This document shows, in pieces, positions 119-56,565 of a stretch of 64,000 bases of DNA (positions are counted from its first letter, which is position 1; each line of letters starts with the position of its first letter). This DNA is from Anaerolinea sp. GTDB taxonomy: Bacteria > Chloroflexota > Anaerolineae > Anaerolineales > Anaerolineaceae. A program made the position numbers and the translations under genes. The notes beneath the pieces are model-generated. The model saw only the letters and a program-made list of their open reading frames with translations, was not told the DNA's origin and ran no database searches. The stretch is from assembly GCA_020725865.1 (NCBI GenBank), contig DYEC01000004.1:186001-250000 (forward strand). Direction: 5' to 3'.

Positions 119-1558
119 ATGCCAAAACGCATTTTTATCAGTGCTGATCATGGTTTAGCCATCGTTTATTTTTTACAAAGCGAGGTATTGTCCACTATCC
201 TGAAGGCAGGAGTTGAAGTGGTTTTATTAACGGATGATGGTTTGAAAGACCGGATCGAAAAGCGTTTTGGTCAGCCGGGATTGATCGTCGAAGGTCTGCG
301 ACTGAAAGAAGCCCGCCGATATACACAGACCACCGCGCCAACGACGCAATGGTGGTTGCACTTTTTGCGTCGCGTGGGTGGTTCAAAGCGCATCAATACT
401 GAGGCAATGGACAGCCACATCTGGCAGGTGGACTATGAAGCCACCGGGCGCCGCAAAACAGTAATGCCGTTGATGAAATTATTGGTTGGTCTGCTTCGCA
501 ATTCAAAGGCTGCTCGGCAGGTGCTGGTTCGTTATCAAATGCGTTTTTCGCCACAGCTTTATACGGATTTGTTTGAAAAGTACCAGCCTGAATTGGTGGT
601 TGCCAGCACATTGGGATGGCGGTTGGATCGCTTTTTGCTACGGCAGGCAGTTCAGCGCGGCATCCCGACCGCCGGCGTCATCGTGGGTTGGGACAATCCA
701 AGTAGTTACAGTTTGCCCGGTGCGCCAGTGGATTGGGTGACCTGCTGGTCTGATATTCAAAAAGAGGAACTGGTGCTTGGTTCCGATTGGGACGCGCGGC
801 GGGTACATGTTGGCGGTATCCCTTCTTATGATGGGTATTTCCGCCGCGAGTGGGTGATACCGCGCGAAGAGTACTTCCGGTTGCACAACCTCGACCTACA
901 GCGCAAGCTGCTGGGGTATGCGTGTAGCTTTGTGACCTTTTCACCCAATTATCAGAATGTCGAAACATTGGCGCGTCTGGTATCGGGTAATCAACTATCA
1001 GCCCCGGCTCAGCTTTTGATCCGCCTGCATCCCAATCATTTTATGGATGAGCCGCTGTTTGCCGGCGAGCGCGAGAAAATTCGTCGGCTGGCGCGTGAGC
1101 TGCCTCATGTTCACGTAGTTGAACCGGTGCCGCTGGGTGGTGAACTGGGCTATTATTCTGGGGAAGACATGCCGGAAAAAACTTCGATGATGGCTTATTC
1201 AGATGTGTTTCTCACCGTTTATTCGACAATGGTGGTAGAAGCGGCAATCCATGACCGCCCGATTGTTAGCGTTTGTCTGGATGCACCGGGCGGCTGGAAT
1301 CAACCCGGTCGGTTTTCGCTGGCGTTGTCAAAGATTGGTGACTGGCCTACGCACCAACGTTTCCGTCAGGCGGGCGCCGGGCACGTGGCATTTAGTGAAG
1401 ACGAATTGCAGCAAGCGATTAACCTGTATCTTGACCACCCATCACTGGATCGGGAAAAGCGGCAGGCTTTTATTAAGGACGAAGTGACTTTTGTAGATGG
1501 CAGCGCTGGCAGGCGAACTGGAGAGTATTTGATTTCCAGGATAGGCAGACGCGCTTGA
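119..1558 (+). CDS. Capsule-type GT-B glycosyltransferase-like protein
   Basis: This 479-residue soluble protein probably transfers a sugar or sugar-acid during surface polysaccharide synthesis. Its C-terminal half has the layout of capsule-synthesis and CDP-glycerol-type GT-B enzymes: LLIRLHPNHF near residues 300-310, then VFLTVYSTMVVEAA near 360, where a conserved Ser/Thr-rich turn precedes a helix ending in a Pro-Ile-Val strand. A GAGGAA ribosome site (104-109) lies 9 nt before the ATG. It is followed at 50 nt by an oxidoreductase in the same locus. The fold assignment comes from motif pattern only. Donor and acceptor are unknown, and it is distantly like the other GT-B protein at 13847. 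Confidence 0.55.
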   Translation: MPKRIFISADHGLAIVYFLQSEVLSTILKAGVEVVLLTDDGLKDRIEKRFGQPGLIVEGLRLKEARRYTQTTAPTTQWWLHFLRRVGGSKRINTEAMDSHIWQVDYEATGRRKTVMPLMKLLVGLLRNSKAARQVLVRYQMRFSPQLYTDLFEKYQPELVVASTLGWRLDRFLLRQAVQRGIPTAGVIVGWDNPSSYSLPGAPVDWVTCWSDIQKEELVLGSDWDARRVHVGGIPSYDGYFRREWVIPREEYFRLHNLDLQRKLLGYACSFVTFSPNYQNVETLARLVSGNQLSAPAQLLIRLHPNHFMDEPLFAGEREKIRRLARELPHVHVVEPVPLGGELGYYSGEDMPEKTSMMAYSDVFLTVYSTMVVEAAIHDRPIVSVCLDAPGGWNQPGRFSLALSKIGDWPTHQRFRQAGAGHVAFSEDELQQAINLYLDHPSLDREKRQAFIKDEVTFVDGSAGRRTGEYLISRIGRRA

Positions 1559-1608
1559 ACTATTGCTGTTCAGCCTGCTAAAGGCATTTGCGCTGAAAGG
1601 AGTGAGCG

Positions 1609-2577
1609 ATGCGTTTCTTGATTGCAGGGTATGGTTCTATCGGGCGGCGTCATCTACGTAATTTGCTTGCACTTGGTGAACATGACATTGTTTTGTACCG
1701 CACGCGCCGCAGCACACTACCTGAAGACGAGATTTTTGGTGTTCCGGTGGAGACTGATCTCTCGGCGGCATTAGCCCATCAGCCGGATGCGGTGATTGTG
1801 GCAAACCCGACGGCGCTTCATCTGGATATTGCCATTCCCGCCGCTCGTGCCGGCTGTCATCTGTTTTTGGAAAAGCCGATTTCGCATTCACTTGCGCGGG
1901 TTGAGGAACTGAGCGAAGCGCTCAAAGCTGGCGGCGGAAAAGTGCTGGTGGGGTTTCAGTTCCGTTTTCATCCGGGTTTGCGGCAGGTAAAGAACCTGCT
2001 CAAAGAAAGCGCGCTTGGACAGCCGTTATCGCTGCGCTGTGAATGGGGTGAGTATTTGCCTGGATGGCATCCGTGGGAGGATTACCGTCAGAGTTATAGT
2101 GCGCGTGGTGATCTGGGTGGCGGTGTGGTGTTAACGCTGTGTCATCCGTTGGATTATTTACGCTGGTTCTTTGGTGAGGGTGAATTGCTCCACTCTTTTG
2201 TGGGTAAACTAAGCAATCTGGAAATTGAGGTGGAAGATGTTGCCGAAGTGCTGATGCGCTTTCCCGGTAATCTGCTTGCCAGTGTGCATCTGGATTACTT
2301 TCGCCGCCCGCCGGTTCACCGGCTGGAAATTACCGGGTCGAATGGATTGTTGACTTGGGATAATGCTGATGGCGCCGTTCGGCTTTACCGAGCTAATGCA
2401 AATGAGCCAGAGGTATTTTTGCCTCCGCAGGACTTCGAACGCAATACCATGTTTCTGGATGAGATGCGCCACTTTTTGGATGTTGTGAATGGGAGGGAAG
2501 AGCCTGCCTGCACATTGGAAGACGGCATTCGAGCTTTAGAACTGGCACTGCAAATTCTTGGCAGATTGCCGGCTTAA
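1609..2577 (+). CDS. Gfo/Idh/MocA-family NAD(P)-dependent sugar oxidoreductase
   Basis: This 322-residue cytosolic oxidoreductase probably acts on a nucleotide sugar or an inositol-like substrate. The N-terminus carries a Rossmann dinucleotide site, GYGSIGRRH at residues 7-15. The family's EKPIS motif, which holds the catalytic-region lysine, follows near residue 88. The C-terminal alpha/beta domain contains GVVLTLCHPLDYLRWFF, where the family histidine sits. AAGGAG (1597-1602) is 6 nt before the ATG. Its place among glycosyltransferases suggests it modifies a sugar precursor of the polymer. The exact substrate cannot be read from sequence. Confidence 0.85.
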   Translation: MRFLIAGYGSIGRRHLRNLLALGEHDIVLYRTRRSTLPEDEIFGVPVETDLSAALAHQPDAVIVANPTALHLDIAIPAARAGCHLFLEKPISHSLARVEELSEALKAGGGKVLVGFQFRFHPGLRQVKNLLKESALGQPLSLRCEWGEYLPGWHPWEDYRQSYSARGDLGGGVVLTLCHPLDYLRWFFGEGELLHSFVGKLSNLEIEVEDVAEVLMRFPGNLLASVHLDYFRRPPVHRLEITGSNGLLTWDNADGAVRLYRANANEPEVFLPPQDFERNTMFLDEMRHFLDVVNGREEPACTLEDGIRALELALQILGRLPA

Positions 2578-2600
2578 ACCTGGCCAACGGATGGTAAACG

Positions 2601-4409
2601 GTGAGTCAGACCAGTTCGATCACAAACGAAGCGCAAGATAAAAACCATACAGGCAGATTACGCTGGCTGCGGCTGAATGTTTCCCGTATGTCTTTATTAT
2701 GGGTGCTGCTATATTTCACCATATTTACGGTTGTAATGACCTGGCCTCTGGCATTACGTATGAAGAGCGAAATTGTCGGTCAAATCGGGGATAATATTTA
2801 TTTTATCTGGATGATTGGCTGGATTAAAAAAGCACTCTTTGAGCTGGGTGTTAACCCATTTAATGTATGGTTTTTGAACTATCCACAGGGCTGGAGCATG
2901 GCATATACTGAGATTACTCCGGTTATGTTGCTGATTGCCCTGCCTTTCAGCTTCATTGGGGGGGCTACGTTCGCTTACAACGCGGCGATGCTGCTCACGT
3001 TTATTCTTTCCGGATTGGGGATGTTCCTGTGGGTGCAGGCGCTGACAAGTAACCGTGCTGCGGCTCTGGTGGCGGGTACAATTTATGCCTTTCTGCCTTA
3101 TCACTTCGCCCATTTTCTGATCGGACATTTGAATTTGTCCGGTATTCAGTGGTTTCCGTTCTATTTCTGGGGTTTATTTGAAATCTTCCAAAAGCAAGAC
3201 AAAGCCAAACAGGAAAAGGGCTGGTGGAAACCGGCAATGTTGGCGGGTGTGATGCTGGGGCTAATCGGCTGGACATCGCAGTATTATCTTTATATGGCTG
3301 TGCTGGTTACTGGTTGGTTGGTGCTGGCTTATTTGGTGTTTTTTGAGCGCCTTCGCTGGCGTGAATGGGGTTTCTGGCGTCAGTTGTTGCTGATGGGGTT
3401 GGTGGCGCTGCCGCTGGTTGTGGTTGCAGTTGCGCCGTATGTAATGCTCTTCCAGCAAGGCGGGCTTCCGGACCGCAATATCAGTCTGGTGCGGATGTAT
3501 TCTGCCAGCCCGACGGATTTCTTACTGCCCTCTACCGATCATTTTCTGTGGGGCAAGTGGGTAGGCGAGCATTTCAACCGTCAAATGTGGGTGGAAGGTA
3601 CGCTCTATATCGGAGCAGTTTCACTTGCTCTGGCTGTGCTGGCATTTATCAAACGCCGCCGGATTGAAAATCGGCAGTTTCTTGCCCTGTGTGTCTGGGG
3701 GGCAGCATTTGCATTGGTGCTGGCGATGGGGATTGATTTGCACTGGAATGGGCAATCGGTGGAAATTCCGCTACCGGCTGTGGTATCTAACGCACTGGGT
3801 CGCAACGCTGTGCCAATTCCATTGCCAGGATATATCTTGTTCTATGTATTTCCTTTCTTTGCCAAGCTGCGCGCCCTGATGCGCTTTGGGGTATTTGTTT
3901 TGCTGTTTTTCAGCGTTGCGGCTGGGCTTGGGGCTGCTTGGTTGTTGGACAAAGTTCGTTCCAGCTTGAGAACCGTCCTAACGATAGTTTTGCTTGGGCT
4001 TGTGTTTTTGGATTTTTATCCGGGTGCTTATCAGGAATTTGCTCGAATACAGCCACGCTCTCTGGACTACTGGCTGGCACAGCAACCCGGACAGGGTGCC
4101 GTGATCCAGTTTCCATTTGAAAAGAGCGAGGATCAGGAACATACGTATTACACGCTGACACATGGCAAACCCTTTGTGGGCGGATTTTTCAATGCTTTTC
4201 CGCCGGAGCAGTATGCCCGTTTACGCCCCTTGATGGAAAATTTCCCAGATGAGCAGAGTGTCTCACTGCTGTCTGAGCTGGATGTTCAATATGTGCTGGT
4301 GGACAAAAGCTCGTACAGCGACCCAGATACGGTCCGCCGGAAGTGTGAAGCGTTAGGACTGAAATATGTACGGGAGATGGATGGGCAGATGGTGTTTTTA
4401 CACGAGTAG
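2601..4409 (+). CDS. Polytopic membrane protein, GT-C glycosyltransferase-like
   Basis: This 602-residue protein has about 11-12 hydrophobic helices (residues 30-470) and a soluble C-terminal domain of about 130 residues. The first long extracytoplasmic loop carries acidic residues (IGDNIYFIW near 60), as in GT-C enzymes that use polyprenyl-linked sugars. The GTG at 2601 is the only plausible upstream start and its ribosome site is weak. It is the first of several such proteins in this locus. Function as a lipid-linked sugar transferase, or as a flippase/polymerase-like protein, is an inference from topology and neighbours. Confidence 0.55.
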   Translation: MSQTSSITNEAQDKNHTGRLRWLRLNVSRMSLLWVLLYFTIFTVVMTWPLALRMKSEIVGQIGDNIYFIWMIGWIKKALFELGVNPFNVWFLNYPQGWSMAYTEITPVMLLIALPFSFIGGATFAYNAAMLLTFILSGLGMFLWVQALTSNRAAALVAGTIYAFLPYHFAHFLIGHLNLSGIQWFPFYFWGLFEIFQKQDKAKQEKGWWKPAMLAGVMLGLIGWTSQYYLYMAVLVTGWLVLAYLVFFERLRWREWGFWRQLLLMGLVALPLVVVAVAPYVMLFQQGGLPDRNISLVRMYSASPTDFLLPSTDHFLWGKWVGEHFNRQMWVEGTLYIGAVSLALAVLAFIKRRRIENRQFLALCVWGAAFALVLAMGIDLHWNGQSVEIPLPAVVSNALGRNAVPIPLPGYILFYVFPFFAKLRALMRFGVFVLLFFSVAAGLGAAWLLDKVRSSLRTVLTIVLLGLVFLDFYPGAYQEFARIQPRSLDYWLAQQPGQGAVIQFPFEKSEDQEHTYYTLTHGKPFVGGFFNAFPPEQYARLRPLMENFPDEQSVSLLSELDVQYVLVDKSSYSDPDTVRRKCEALGLKYVREMDGQMVFLHE

Positions 4410-51850: not shown

Positions 51851-54472
51851 TTAATGAGTGATTGTATCTTTCAGCATTTGCTGACCAATTTGCTCAATTT
51901 TTGCTGGGTTATCTTCTTCCAGTAGTACAACGAGAGCAAGGGGAATACCTCTCCACTCTGCACGAGTACCACCTATGTACCAAGTAATTACACCATGGTC
52001 GGTTTTTGCGCGCCCAACTGTCTGCCAGATGGGCAGGCTTGGATAGCCAAGGTAGCGGGCAGCATCAAATGCCGCTTTTTCAGATAAGACGGGGGATTGG
52101 GAAGACATTCCCAGAATCACCCAACCTTCCTGGGGTGTGTGAATGGCGTTGACCAATAGGGGTTTGGACAGATTACCTCGAGCGCTCAACAAAGCGGCTG
52201 CTAGAGCCATTTGCAAGGGTGAAACCTTGATTTCACTCTGACCAAGTATTGCCAGTTGTGGATCAGAAAAAGCATCTATAGCGCTCGAAGAAGCTACTGG
52301 CAATGGAATGGATGGGGGATCCAACCATCCTAATTTTTTATATAGATCTAATATCTGTGATGGTTGAAGATTCTGACCCAACTCGAGTAGAGCACCCGGA
52401 CATCCATTCTTAATCACTGGACCCCATTCATTCCTTTCATCAGGCATCTGTGCACAGCCCCAAAATATACCATTTAGCCTTGTTGCCAGCTCTTGCGGTG
52501 TTTCTAATGGCAGGCGGCGGTCAAGAATTTCCGCGAGCAAAAATGGGCCGAATGCTGTGCCCGGTGAATATAGTCCCTGGGTTGCGCGGTTTACCAGTGG
52601 CGAACGTGTATCGCTTAGCCATCCTTCAAGTTTTTCTTCCACTGCGTTCGCATCGTAAAAAGGATGTGAAGCCATTGCTAGAATTTCGCCTGTCTCTGCG
52701 TTTAGCAATACCAGGGCTCCGCTATGATTAGAGAGTAGCTCATCTGCTTTTTCCTGAAGGGTAAGGTCAATGCTCAAACGGACATCTAGGCCGGGAGGTG
52801 GTGTTCCGTAGATCATTTCATTTAGCCAAACGGTGGAAGAAGGGATGCCCTGTAAACCGCTTAGATAAGCGTCGAGAGAACGTTCGAGTCCCGCTTGTCC
52901 ATAAACCGGGTGGGTATAACCGGTAACGTGTGAAAGTGCTGGATAAAGAATCTGTCGGCTATATTTTCCGGGCTCTCCAGTACTAATACTGATCGGTCGG
53001 TTATTGCGATCCAGAATAGCCCCTCGTTTAACATATAAACTGGCAATTGAACGACGAAGGTTGTCTTGTCGACTCAGCAAATCATCTGCACGCACAATAG
53101 ACCACCAACCGTTAATTAGACCCAACACTGCCAGTGATGTCAGGGTAACTGCTCCTAGAAACAGGTAAGGGCGGCTTTGGGGGAGGGGGGCAGGTTGCAG
53201 TTCTGAATGGCTGCTGATCCGGCTCAGGATCAGGACGCTCAGAAAAGCTGTAAGTAGCGAACTGCCGCCATAGGACACAAAAGGTAATGTGACACCAGTG
53301 AGTGGAAACAGGCGGTTCGTTCCGCCAATAATCAAAATGCCCTGTGTTGCAAGGTAAGCGGACAGACCAGCTGCCAGGTAGCGTTGATAATTGTTGGGTG
53401 CTTTTAGCGCAATGAGGATTCCTCTTATGGTAAGGATGCCTAATAATAACAAGATTCCCAGACTGCCTGCCAGACCGCTCTCTTCAGCAATGGCTGCAAA
53501 AATGAAATCTGAGTGCGATATTGGCACCAATGCAGGATTACCCAACCCTAATCCACGTCCGAATACTCTGCCTGCTGCCATTGCCAGAATGGATTGAACG
53601 ATCTGGTATGAGCGTCCGCTTGGGTCAAGCCATGGATTGATCCAAGCCTCAATCCGCAAGCGGATTACGTCGAACATTAAAAATCCAGCTACTCCGGCAA
53701 TCATCAATGTTATCAGTCCGAGTAGTAAAACGCGCCAGCTTCCGGAAGCCAGGTAAATAATAATAAAGTACAACACGAGGAAAAGAGATGCAGTACCCAG
53801 GTCGCGTTGTGCCAGTAGAATCAATAATGCAATCCCAACTAGAACCAGGGTTGGTATAAGTAACTGAGCTAAATTGAAACTGATTGGAAGACGGTCTGCC
53901 AAATAAGCAGCCAAATAGATAATGAGAAGAAGTTTAAGGGGCTCAGAGGGTTGAAGGTAAATGCCGCAACAACCTAACCATAAGCGTGGGCCAATGCCTT
54001 CCGGATAAGTGCCAAAGAGAAATGTCAATGCAGTTAGAAGCAATCCACTGGTCAGCCAGAGGTATTTATAGCGGCGAAGGAGGATCAATAAATTGGGAAT
54101 TCTCAATCCGGCCCATATTGCTAAAAGGCAAATTCCCAGCCAGAGTGTTTGACGCCAGCCAAAGTTGTTGTCCAAACGCCAGATTGTTAACAATCCCCAG
54201 CCACTGAGCATGGCACAAACAGGTAAAATGTAAGGGTCTCGCTCAGGAATTTTTCTGGAAAATAGGCGATGAATCAAACTAAACCCGACCAACCAAACCG
54301 TAAAACCAAGCCAATGCGCCCAGCGGTAATCAACATCCCAGGAATGTAATCGAACACTGGGTGATAGCGTTAAAACAATGGCATTCAGAAACAAAAAAAA
54401 GCCTGCCAATCGTAAAAGATGGCTCTGAATACGATCTTTTGGTAGTGCAGTAGCGGGGAAAAATAAAATCAT
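51851..54472 (-). CDS. RodA/FtsW-type SEDS polymerase fused to degenerate class B PBP
   Basis: This 873-residue fusion joins two cell-wall enzymes. Residues 20-420 form a SEDS glycan polymerase with its motifs intact: QPSEPLK (174-180), QRDLGT (222-227), HSDFIFA (320-326) with the conserved aspartate, and PFVSYGGSS (397-405). A further helix (436-458) leads into a PBP domain (YVKRGAILDRN at 480). In that domain the SxxK motif, normally in a PPGSTFK context, reads SPGTAFG (636-642). The SxN site aligns as GCP (690-692) and KTG reads KTD (823-825). The polymerase should work, but the transpeptidase looks inactive. It overlaps mtnP by 4 nt. Confidence 0.88.
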   Translation of the reverse strand: MILFFPATALPKDRIQSHLLRLAGFFLFLNAIVLTLSPSVRLHSWDVDYRWAHWLGFTVWLVGFSLIHRLFSRKIPERDPYILPVCAMLSGWGLLTIWRLDNNFGWRQTLWLGICLLAIWAGLRIPNLLILLRRYKYLWLTSGLLLTALTFLFGTYPEGIGPRLWLGCCGIYLQPSEPLKLLLIIYLAAYLADRLPISFNLAQLLIPTLVLVGIALLILLAQRDLGTASLFLVLYFIIIYLASGSWRVLLLGLITLMIAGVAGFLMFDVIRLRIEAWINPWLDPSGRSYQIVQSILAMAAGRVFGRGLGLGNPALVPISHSDFIFAAIAEESGLAGSLGILLLLGILTIRGILIALKAPNNYQRYLAAGLSAYLATQGILIIGGTNRLFPLTGVTLPFVSYGGSSLLTAFLSVLILSRISSHSELQPAPLPQSRPYLFLGAVTLTSLAVLGLINGWWSIVRADDLLSRQDNLRRSIASLYVKRGAILDRNNRPISISTGEPGKYSRQILYPALSHVTGYTHPVYGQAGLERSLDAYLSGLQGIPSSTVWLNEMIYGTPPPGLDVRLSIDLTLQEKADELLSNHSGALVLLNAETGEILAMASHPFYDANAVEEKLEGWLSDTRSPLVNRATQGLYSPGTAFGPFLLAEILDRRLPLETPQELATRLNGIFWGCAQMPDERNEWGPVIKNGCPGALLELGQNLQPSQILDLYKKLGWLDPPSIPLPVASSSAIDAFSDPQLAILGQSEIKVSPLQMALAAALLSARGNLSKPLLVNAIHTPQEGWVILGMSSQSPVLSEKAAFDAARYLGYPSLPIWQTVGRAKTDHGVITWYIGGTRAEWRGIPLALVVLLEEDNPAKIEQIGQQMLKDTITH

Positions 54473-55338
54473 GCGGGCAGATACTTATTCACCAGAAGGT
54501 TGAGCTTTTTACGTGTTTCAAGGGAAATTCGGTCAGGACTGGTAATAATCGCTTTTTCCAGGGAATGTCGGCAGGCACAGTCGTCTTCCTGCGGCAGAAT
54601 TTCAATCAGCTTGCGGATCGATTCCTGAATGATGCTTGTGTTTCGATTCAGTGTTTGGATGACCGTTTCGATTGTAACGGGCTCTTCAATGGCATGCCAG
54701 GCATCATAGTCTGTCACATGGGCGATACTGACATAACACATTTCTGCTTCACGTGCCAGGAAAGCCTCGGGGCAGGTGGTCATGTTAACAATAGAACCCC
54801 CCCAAGCACGGAATAGATGTGATTCGGCTCTTGTAGAGAAGCGTGGCCCTTCAATCGTGATTGCAGTGCCACCCTGATGAGTAATCACTTCGCATTGTGT
54901 CAGTGCTTGGTATGCAAGACTGGATAGACTAAGACAGAAAGGGTCTGCCATACTGACATGAGCAACAAGACTTTCTCCAAAGAATGTGCGGCTGCGTTGT
55001 CGGGTAAAGTCAACAAGTTGGTCAGGGATCACAACATGGCCAGGGGCATAATCGTCACGTAATGAGCCACAAGCACTGACGCCAACGACACGCTCTACTC
55101 CCAGACTTTTCAGAGCATAAATATTGGCAAGGTAATTGACTTCTGATGGCATGATATGATGACCAATGCCGTGTCGTGCCAGGAAAACTACTTTTTTGTT
55201 TGTCAGGTAGCCTGTTACTAGGGGAGCACTTGGACGGCCGAAAGGCGTGTCTATTTCAAGCGCCTGAATTTCTTCAAGTCCTGCAAGCTGGTAAAGACCA
55301 GTTCCACCAATTACGGCAATGACGGGTTTTTCAGTCAT
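54469..55338 (-). CDS. mtnP: S-methyl-5'-thioadenosine phosphorylase
   Basis: This 289-residue enzyme recycles methylthioadenosine from polyamine and SAM metabolism. Motifs of the trimeric MTAP class are clear: IGGTGLYQ near residue 10, RHGIGHHIMPSEVNYLANIY at 55-75, TIEGPRFSTRAES near 175 and NMTTCPEAFLAREAEM, where the base- and methylthio-binding residues lie. DYDAW holds the adenine-binding aspartates. GGAG is 8 nt before the ATG. It is an unexpected member of an otherwise morphogenesis-type operon and overlaps the SEDS-PBP gene. Confidence 0.92.
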   Translation of the reverse strand: MTEKPVIAVIGGTGLYQLAGLEEIQALEIDTPFGRPSAPLVTGYLTNKKVVFLARHGIGHHIMPSEVNYLANIYALKSLGVERVVGVSACGSLRDDYAPGHVVIPDQLVDFTRQRSRTFFGESLVAHVSMADPFCLSLSSLAYQALTQCEVITHQGGTAITIEGPRFSTRAESHLFRAWGGSIVNMTTCPEAFLAREAEMCYVSIAHVTDYDAWHAIEEPVTIETVIQTLNRNTSIIQESIRKLIEILPQEDDCACRHSLEKAIITSPDRISLETRKKLNLLVNKYLPA

Positions 55339-55353
55339 GGAAGCATCTCCTTT

Positions 55354-55776
55354 CTATCGGAAAGTGACCTCAAAGTTAACCCGTCCGCAGCGGATTTCAT
55401 CCCCTGAAATAATGACCGTTGCGGTTGAAATTGGTTCTTCGTTTAGAAAAGTGCCATTGGTTGAGTTGAGATCTTCTAACCACCATTGCTTGTGGTGATA
55501 ACTAAGGCGGGCATGATGCGCTGAAACCGTCTCGTCTGAAAGGATGCATTCGCACGAAGGATCGCGCCCAATGATAATTTCACTGGTTTTATATTCCCGC
55601 TGATCATGTTCCTCATTATCAAGAAAAGTGATCGTCAGGGTTGGCACAATTTGGGATGTAAGCAATGCACTGCTCAGTTGAAGATCACGCCAGATTGTAT
55701 AAAGTGCCCATGCCAGAAAGGCATACAGACAAATTGTAATTATTATTCTCAGGGCGAGAACAAGGATTCCACTCAT
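55354..55776 (-). CDS. fhaB: FhaB-like membrane protein with FHA domain
   Basis: This 140-residue protein has one N-terminal helix (residues 5-27, LVLALRIIITICLYAFLAW) and a cytoplasmic FHA phosphothreonine-binding domain. The FHA core has IIIGRDPSCE, SAHHARLSY and DLNSTNGTFLN, all typical. One helix plus one FHA domain is the layout of FhaB/FipA of actinobacteria, which links protein kinases to cell-wall synthesis. It lies 3 nt after an FhaA-like gene. No Ser/Thr kinase is encoded in the window. Confidence 0.82.
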   Translation of the reverse strand: MSGILVLALRIIITICLYAFLAWALYTIWRDLQLSSALLTSQIVPTLTITFLDNEEHDQREYKTSEIIIGRDPSCECILSDETVSAHHARLSYHHKQWWLEDLNSTNGTFLNEEPISTATVIISGDEIRCGRVNFEVTFR

Positions 55777-55779
55777 CTG

Positions 55780-56565
55780 TTATTTGTCTTCGGTTGATTG
55801 CATACCCGGTCCAGGAGGAAAGTTACTGGTGTCCTCTAAAGACTGCGGAGCGTCTTCGCCATAAATTACAGGAATGCCGGCCAGAGATATGACGTCACCG
55901 GGCTTAAGAACGTGTTGGGTAATTCGAGTACCGTTCACAAAGGTACCGCCTGTGGAACCAAGGTCGAAAATCACGTAGCGACCACGACTGGCACGCAATT
56001 GAGCATGATTACGCGATACACGGGGATCGTCAATGATGATGTGGTTATCGGGACGCCGTCCAATGTTGATTACCAAATCGCGCAGGGGATAGGTTTGAGT
56101 GTTGTTGATAATCAGAAAAGCGTGTAGCGAGCGAGCATCGCGGGTGTCTTCGGCATCATTGCGAGGAAGCGTTAAAACAGCAGTTTCATCTACCGACCGC
56201 TGCGGCTGGGCAGCGCTGACGCGAATTTCATGCTGGGGAAGTTGAGCATCTTGAGCAAGTTCAATGGTCGGGGGACGTGTGAAGGTAATACCATTTTCAA
56301 GCGCAGCTTCTTGAAGTACACCTGCCAAGGTCTCTAATAAAAAGGGTTCGCTTGACCAGATGGAATAATCATCTGGTGGAAGGGAAATAATAAAGTGGGT
56401 TGTTGAGATGATCTGCTCGCTGATCTCTTCCGAAAGTACATTTTTTAATGCAGTTACCAGCCGATTGGCAAGCTGATGCTCGTAGCTGTGCCATGGCAAG
56501 AGTTGAGCACTTCCCTCAATTAAAGCCCGTAACCGCGACTCAATTCGATCTAATTGAGATTTCAT
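55780..56565 (-). CDS. fhaA: FhaA-like protein, DUF3662 plus FHA domain
   Basis: This 261-residue cytosolic protein starts with RIESRLRALIEGSAQLLPWH, the opening of the DUF3662 domain found in FhaA (residues 1-115). A linker rich in Thr and Asp follows, which may be phosphorylated. The FHA domain (about 150-240) has INIGRRPDNHIII, VSRNHAQLR and DLGSTGGTFVNG. In actinobacteria FhaA docks to a lipid-II flippase partner and regulates the cell wall. The pairing with fhaB and a RodA/PBP gene matches that setting. The ATG lies 35 nt after the YbaK gene and has no strong ribosome site. Confidence 0.85.
   Translation of the reverse strand: MKSQLDRIESRLRALIEGSAQLLPWHSYEHQLANRLVTALKNVLSEEISEQIISTTHFIISLPPDDYSIWSSEPFLLETLAGVLQEAALENGITFTRPPTIELAQDAQLPQHEIRVSAAQPQRSVDETAVLTLPRNDAEDTRDARSLHAFLIINNTQTYPLRDLVINIGRRPDNHIIIDDPRVSRNHAQLRASRGRYVIFDLGSTGGTFVNGTRITQHVLKPGDVISLAGIPVIYGEDAPQSLEDTSNFPPGPGMQSTEDK

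Follow-up and report, generated by a model that had tools for sequence, protein, structure and literature searches.

What is a class B penicillin-binding protein (PBP) for when it is joined to a SEDS polymerase and has lost the motifs of a transpeptidase (TP)? The question is raised by an 873-aa open reading frame in the window, by which we mean the whole 64,000-nt stretch of Anaerolinea sp. DNA that was analysed. The initial annotation had placed this frame at 51851-54472, where it does exist, on the minus strand (read from 54472 down to 51851); the plus strand of that interval is full of stops. Pfam matched FTSW_RODA_SPOVE (PF01098) at residues 102-423 with 237.8 bits against a gathering score of 26.4, PBP_dimer_2 (the PbpA-type dimerisation or pedestal domain) at residues 483-561, and Transpeptidase, weakly, at residues 585-790 (57 bits, cut-off 22.1). 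The initial annotation had also called for a structure prediction; run with AlphaFold (mean pLDDT 90.2, pTM 0.82), it gave a complete SEDS and PBP fold, with the best PDB matches of the TP fold being E. lenta 4mnr and M. tuberculosis PbpA (3upo/3un7; TMt 0.74-0.78), PbpA being the nearest. With its PBP_dimer_2 pedestal and transpeptidase fold, the C-terminal half has the architecture of a class B PBP of the PbpA type. The features are collected in Table 1.

Table 1. The fusion gene, its modules and former active-site positions, and the genes upstream of it (window coordinates)
Feature	Position	Strand	Basis
SEDS polymerase - pseudo-class B PBP fusion, 873 aa	51851..54472	-	ORF, Pfam, AlphaFold model
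SEDS (RodA/FtsW) module, residues 10-423	53204..54445	-	Pfam PF01098; alignment to E. coli RodA 8tj3; catalytic columns invariant in dead and intact clades
PBP transmembrane helix, residues 434-460	53093..53173	-	AlphaFold helix H434-460; final PBP part retained in shortest relatives
Pedestal (PBP_dimer_2), residues 461-570	52763..53092	-	Pfam, alignment, dN
Pseudo-transpeptidase domain, residues 571-873, TP fold kept, motifs lost	51854..52762	-	Pfam, AlphaFold, PDB matches
Former SxxK site TAFG, residues 639-642	52547..52558	-	Alignment
Former SxN site GCP, residues 690-692	52397..52405	-	Alignment
Former KTG site TVG, residues 818-820	52013..52021	-	Alignment
C673, probable partner of C691 (52400-52402), across former SxN loop	52454..52456	-	Cys co-occurrence
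Purine nucleoside/MTA phosphorylase-like gene	54469..55338	-	ORF, Pfam; adjoins SEDS-PBP gene in most relatives
FhaB-like protein (TM + FHA domain)	55354..55776	-	PF00498 72.6 bits; synteny
FhaA-like protein (FhaA_N + FHA)	55780..56565	-	PF12401 34.6 bits, PF00498 81.3 bits; synteny

The two halves of the protein have fared differently. The SEDS module keeps QPSE (174-177), QRDLGT (222-227), HSDF (320-323, within the HSDFIFA first noticed) and PFVSYGGSS (397-405), as had been read from the sequence, and when aligned with E. coli RodA it has the catalytic residues of a SEDS glycosyltransferase, D322, E177, K180 and D224. Residues E177, D224, R273, Q290, Q293 and D322 are invariant in relatives with and without transpeptidase motifs. 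In the PBP half, a column alignment with intact relatives shows SxxK replaced by T639-A-F-G642, SxN by G690-C-P692 and KTG by T818-V819-G820. The SPGTAFG (636-642) and GCP (690-692) singled out by the initial annotation indeed occupy the columns of PGSTFK and SCN in intact relatives; its loss of KTG also stood, with the location moved, KTD 823-825 lying five residues downstream of the true site, at columns where intact relatives have no KTG. The claim that all three PBP motifs are gone was thus borne out by this alignment and by the survey of 148 loci below, and we regard the loss of the transpeptidase active site as near certain from the aligned sequences. As SxxK, SxN and KTG are absent here (and in 107 other sampled loci), the protein is not a bifunctional SEDS-bPBP synthase with both halves catalytic; it appears to be a descendant of such synthases and not a working member of the class.

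The pedestal is retained, and the altered state is shared by a large clade and not peculiar to one copy. The homologue search covered 121 genomes of the same order; none of the 67 aligned homologues has SxxK in the frame NRAxQGxYPPGxxxxP, and in about 36 of the 121 genomes, some of them incomplete, a clear orthologue was not seen, so that the protein seems dispensable in places. Relatives from other Chloroflexota classes keep PGSTFK, SCN and KTGTA in the identical columns, with PBP and SEDS mostly encoded by separate neighbouring genes. Among 148 sampled Chloroflexota loci, picked among the better matches so that proportions are not natural frequencies, 108 lacked all three motifs (dead, for short) and 40 had the complete set; no locus was mixed. 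The dead loci comprise 76 fused, 27 split and 5 with the SEDS gene outside the stretch; the intact ones are split (33) or have SEDS outside the stretch (7). A second set from named genomes, gathered with a narrower alignment and sharing some organisms with the first, held 63 fused loci, none with the motif set; its strays were SALK in L231 and KTG in L266, each without the other two motifs. Dead fusions occur in the type-strain genomes of Levilinea saccharolytica (L214), Bellilinea caldifistulae (L215) and Thermanaerothrix daxensis (L256).

Fusion and motif loss are separable. In another class, L299 (G241, 1156-4056, minus strand) is an in-frame SEDS-PBP fusion that keeps all three transpeptidase motifs, which, together with the unfused dead members, rules out that fusion always means loss. 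Two changes account for the dead state on a 102-row tree built from SEDS plus pedestal, against a shuffled mean of 24.1. One falls on the branch leading to an Anaerolineae clade of 74 rows, the other on L128 (G128), an independently fused and dead SEDS-PBP protein of 887 aa from another class. A SEDS-only tree sets the intact rows apart (98% SH-aLRT), with L128 as the sole dead row among them; both trees are quick ones, with SH-aLRT as the only branch support. An AU test disfavoured tracing L128 and the other dead forms to one origin (p-AU 0.019, on a thinned set and tested after the tree had been seen). On the trees, the pseudo state arose once near the base of the large Anaerolineae clade, with an independent origin in another class.

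Has the dead domain simply been abandoned? Among dead fusions, 16 close pairs gave a mean dN of 0.077 for the SEDS module, 0.075 for the pedestal and 0.157 for the TP-like part, while in 10 intact pairs pedestal and transpeptidase were alike (0.164 and 0.145). The pedestal is under tighter constraint than the TP-like part in dead pairs, and this difference is absent in intact pairs. Pedestal residues R468, N471, R473, R483, G484, R506, G518, E530, L537 and G539 are invariant. At the same time, the dead TP-like part has a median dN/dS of 0.15, which indicates that it is still selected and is no neutral pseudogene. Its cysteines C673 and C691 are both present in 80 of the 84 dead members that retain any of the region and in 9 of 40 intact members, and both are gone in 24 short forms; since they occur together or vanish together, a disulfide across the former SxN loop is probable.

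Relatives of the fusion have lost more than the motifs. Some lack about residues 645-705, and these short forms, without about 60 residues, are still predicted to fold as transpeptidases, one of them matching the PbpA fold. L356 (G117) retains no more of the PBP than the helix with its juxtamembrane RGPDILNRSDNPR; in L348 and L351 the protein stops after a C-terminal hydrophobic (TM) helix, and in L349, L350, L353, L354 and L361 it stops with the SEDS module. A tyrosyl-tRNA synthetase gene begins within about 170 bases after the SEDS gene at L349, L350, L353, L354 and L356, leaving no room there for a PBP gene, and no PBP-like frame was recognised downstream of L348, L351 and L361 when the open reading frames were read by eye. 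These genomes may still contain a diverged PBP that has moved to another place. The PBP-less rows nest within the dead clade of the SEDS tree, where well-supported branches require the PBP to have been lost at least three times. The sequences can be arranged in what looks like a graded series, from an intact separate PbpA to a dead PbpA, a fused one, a shortened one, the PBP TM helix only and, finally, no PBP. Tentatively, and with a chance slightly below even, a SEDS series that sheds its transpeptidase in this way might represent a natural minimal SEDS activator and a third cell-wall synthase that polymerises without crosslinking.

L351 (G026, SEDS at 1909-3201, plus strand) forms a long branch on the SEDS tree, and its QPSExxK reads QPAAFFK; the SEDS polymerase of this PBP-less lineage may be losing catalysis itself.

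The genome that carries the fusion has other potential means of crosslinking. A search for further SEDS and class B PBP genes, as the initial annotation had suggested, found three SEDS genes in all, the two others near FtsI-like and PBP2-like genes, and three other class B-type PBPs with intact motifs. The same genome thus still has the canonical FtsW/FtsI and RodA/PBP2 pairs, their PBP motifs intact; the intact PBPs are the FtsI-like, the PBP2-like and a third class B-type protein, plus one class A PBP, and there are five matches of the YkuD L,D-transpeptidase type. Crosslinking by other enzymes, which had been proposed from the sequence, is plausible with such a set. The fusion gene itself lies in an fhaA-fhaB-rodA-pbpA type locus: adjacent FhaA_N and FHA genes (55354-56565) and the MTA phosphorylase-like gene are directly upstream on the same strand, in an order kept in most fused relatives. 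The phosphorylase-like gene, whose last 4 bases are also the first 4 of the SEDS-PBP gene, keeps its place between fhaB and the SEDS gene across the order. The genome has 12 Ser/Thr kinase matches, and the synteny makes phospho-control of the SEDS-PBP protein via the FHA proteins possible.

We consider it likely that the protein is a third, FHA-operon-linked SEDS peptidoglycan synthase in which the dead bPBP acts as activator or scaffold and other enzymes crosslink. It would have originated from the RodA-PbpA pair of the fhaA-fhaB locus, the class B PBP losing transpeptidase catalysis in the ancestor of a large Anaerolineae clade and becoming covalently joined to the polymerase in the present lineage. 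The SEDS half would still polymerise lipid II, its active and regulated conformation maintained by the PBP helix and pedestal. The dead TP domain would serve as a scaffold that is under weaker constraint and sometimes shortened or lost, and to crosslink the strands the cell would rely on its intact FtsI, PBP2, class A PBP or L,D-transpeptidases. We infer the activator or scaffold role because the natural series matches a published hierarchy, with catalysis lost first, then parts of the TP domain, and the helix last. The residual activity of RodA is stimulated by the PBP2 TM helix alone, as it is in a full E. coli RodA-PBP2 fusion (PMC10449877); RodA is activated, both in vitro and in vivo, by changes in the PBP2 pedestal (PMC6207328), and opening of PBP2 promotes RodA polymerisation (PMC10257715). 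The non-enzymatic activator of the initial annotation thus gains support, from the erosion down to a TM helix and from the published in vitro data (PMC10449877). What counts against it is that some lineages have lost the PBP entirely: their SEDS orthologues would manage without even an activator, unless the SEDS protein has changed, as in L351. The polymerase itself should escape acylation by beta-lactams; such insensitivity had been predicted and follows from the missing serine, but it allows no conclusion on the whole cell, in which the target site persists in the other PBPs.

A dead PBP half might instead be a docking platform that recruits a separate active transpeptidase (FtsI, PBP2 or a class A PBP) in trans and is no SEDS activator. 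Its TP fold and surface are under purifying selection, catalytic PBPs are available in the genome, and B. subtilis PBP 2B/PBP 3 provides a precedent for an inactive bPBP with catalysis in trans (PMC5656894); we nevertheless find docking unlikely, considering that the TP-like part evolves fastest and has been shortened or lost in several lineages while SEDS stays. It seems similarly doubtful that the SEDS machine makes an uncrosslinked glycan, or polymerises some other lipid-linked saccharide, so that a transpeptidase is needless. Two complete canonical SEDS-bPBP pairs are present, which could free the third, and some lineages have dropped the PBP altogether, but SEDS catalytic residues identical to those of intact relatives make lipid II the parsimonious substrate.

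Acylation by the C-terminal half through another residue, e.g. C691 or T639, could be argued from the conservation of C691 and C673 in the long forms; however, C691 goes back to the SCN version of the motif and its pairing with C673 fits a disulfide, the short forms lack both cysteines, and in dead members the former catalytic Ser position is T, G, A, L, N or P and the former Lys position Q, G, A, E or L, without pattern. On these variable positions and the cysteine pattern we rejected an alternative nucleophile as very improbable. Missing motifs, taken alone, could also come from an assembly or sequencing error or a decaying pseudogene. The initial annotation had raised the caveat that homologues with intact motifs might expose such an error; intact homologues do exist, yet the same all-or-none loss is seen in 108 of 148 loci, in many families and in named type-strain genomes, and dN/dS is well below 1, which leaves an error or pseudogene with a negligible chance.

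The fusion has partial counterparts among known systems. The actinobacterial RodA and PbpA of the fhaA/fhaB locus (3un7, 3upo) likewise have a PbpA-type pedestal and fold, a RodA-type SEDS protein and FhaA and FhaB as neighbours, whereas here the two are fused and SxxK, SxN and KTG are gone; M. tuberculosis PbpA is, going by the titles of entries 3upo and 3upn, acylated by penicillin and imipenem. B. subtilis PBP 2B S309A supports division, with PBP 3 supplying catalysis (PMC5656894), and likewise separates a structural role of a bPBP from its catalysis, but it is a laboratory point mutant, while the loss here is natural, clade-wide and of three motifs. E. coli RodA with the PBP2 TM helix (PMC10449877) also has no TP domain and an architecture like L356, the former being a laboratory truncation stimulated by the helix and the latter a natural gene. 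Natural SEDS-PBP fusions, with SEDS and bPBP in one reading frame, have already been noted (PMC10449877); here the bPBP half is dead. The fusion itself is therefore not new, and in the part of the literature searched we met no description of a naturally dead bPBP as the partner of a SEDS protein, which hints that the clade-wide dead bPBP with graded loss may be the new part.

These observations bear on how far a class B PBP serves SEDS as an activator as against a crosslinker. The large clade amounts to a natural deletion experiment, in which catalysis and then domains were dropped and the polymerase residues stayed fixed, and it suggests that in a large group of filamentous bacteria the lasting job of the dead PBP half is to switch the polymerase on, not to crosslink. 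The cultured type strains of Bellilinea, Levilinea and Thermanaerothrix make the activator idea testable. The clade also offers a SEDS polymerase joined to a PBP that beta-lactams should not recognise. For such proteins the automatic label 'penicillin-binding protein' is probably incorrect.

A class A PBP-like protein encoded by the same genome but outside the window, L009 (G000:C9:213434-215494, ORF from 175, plus strand, 1027 aa), has two sites that both look dead: its GT51 Glu motif reads VLALYDPGFWGHPGFD, where the sister L007 has ATEDKEFYNHPGFD, and its SxxK, SxN and KTG read PGSLLTP, ANDY and KLG. About 25 relatives in the order share these losses, whereas L341, L342, L343, L345 and L346 (families f3, f4 and f10) are intact. 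By its motifs, the L009 group looks like a second pseudo-PBP family in these bacteria.
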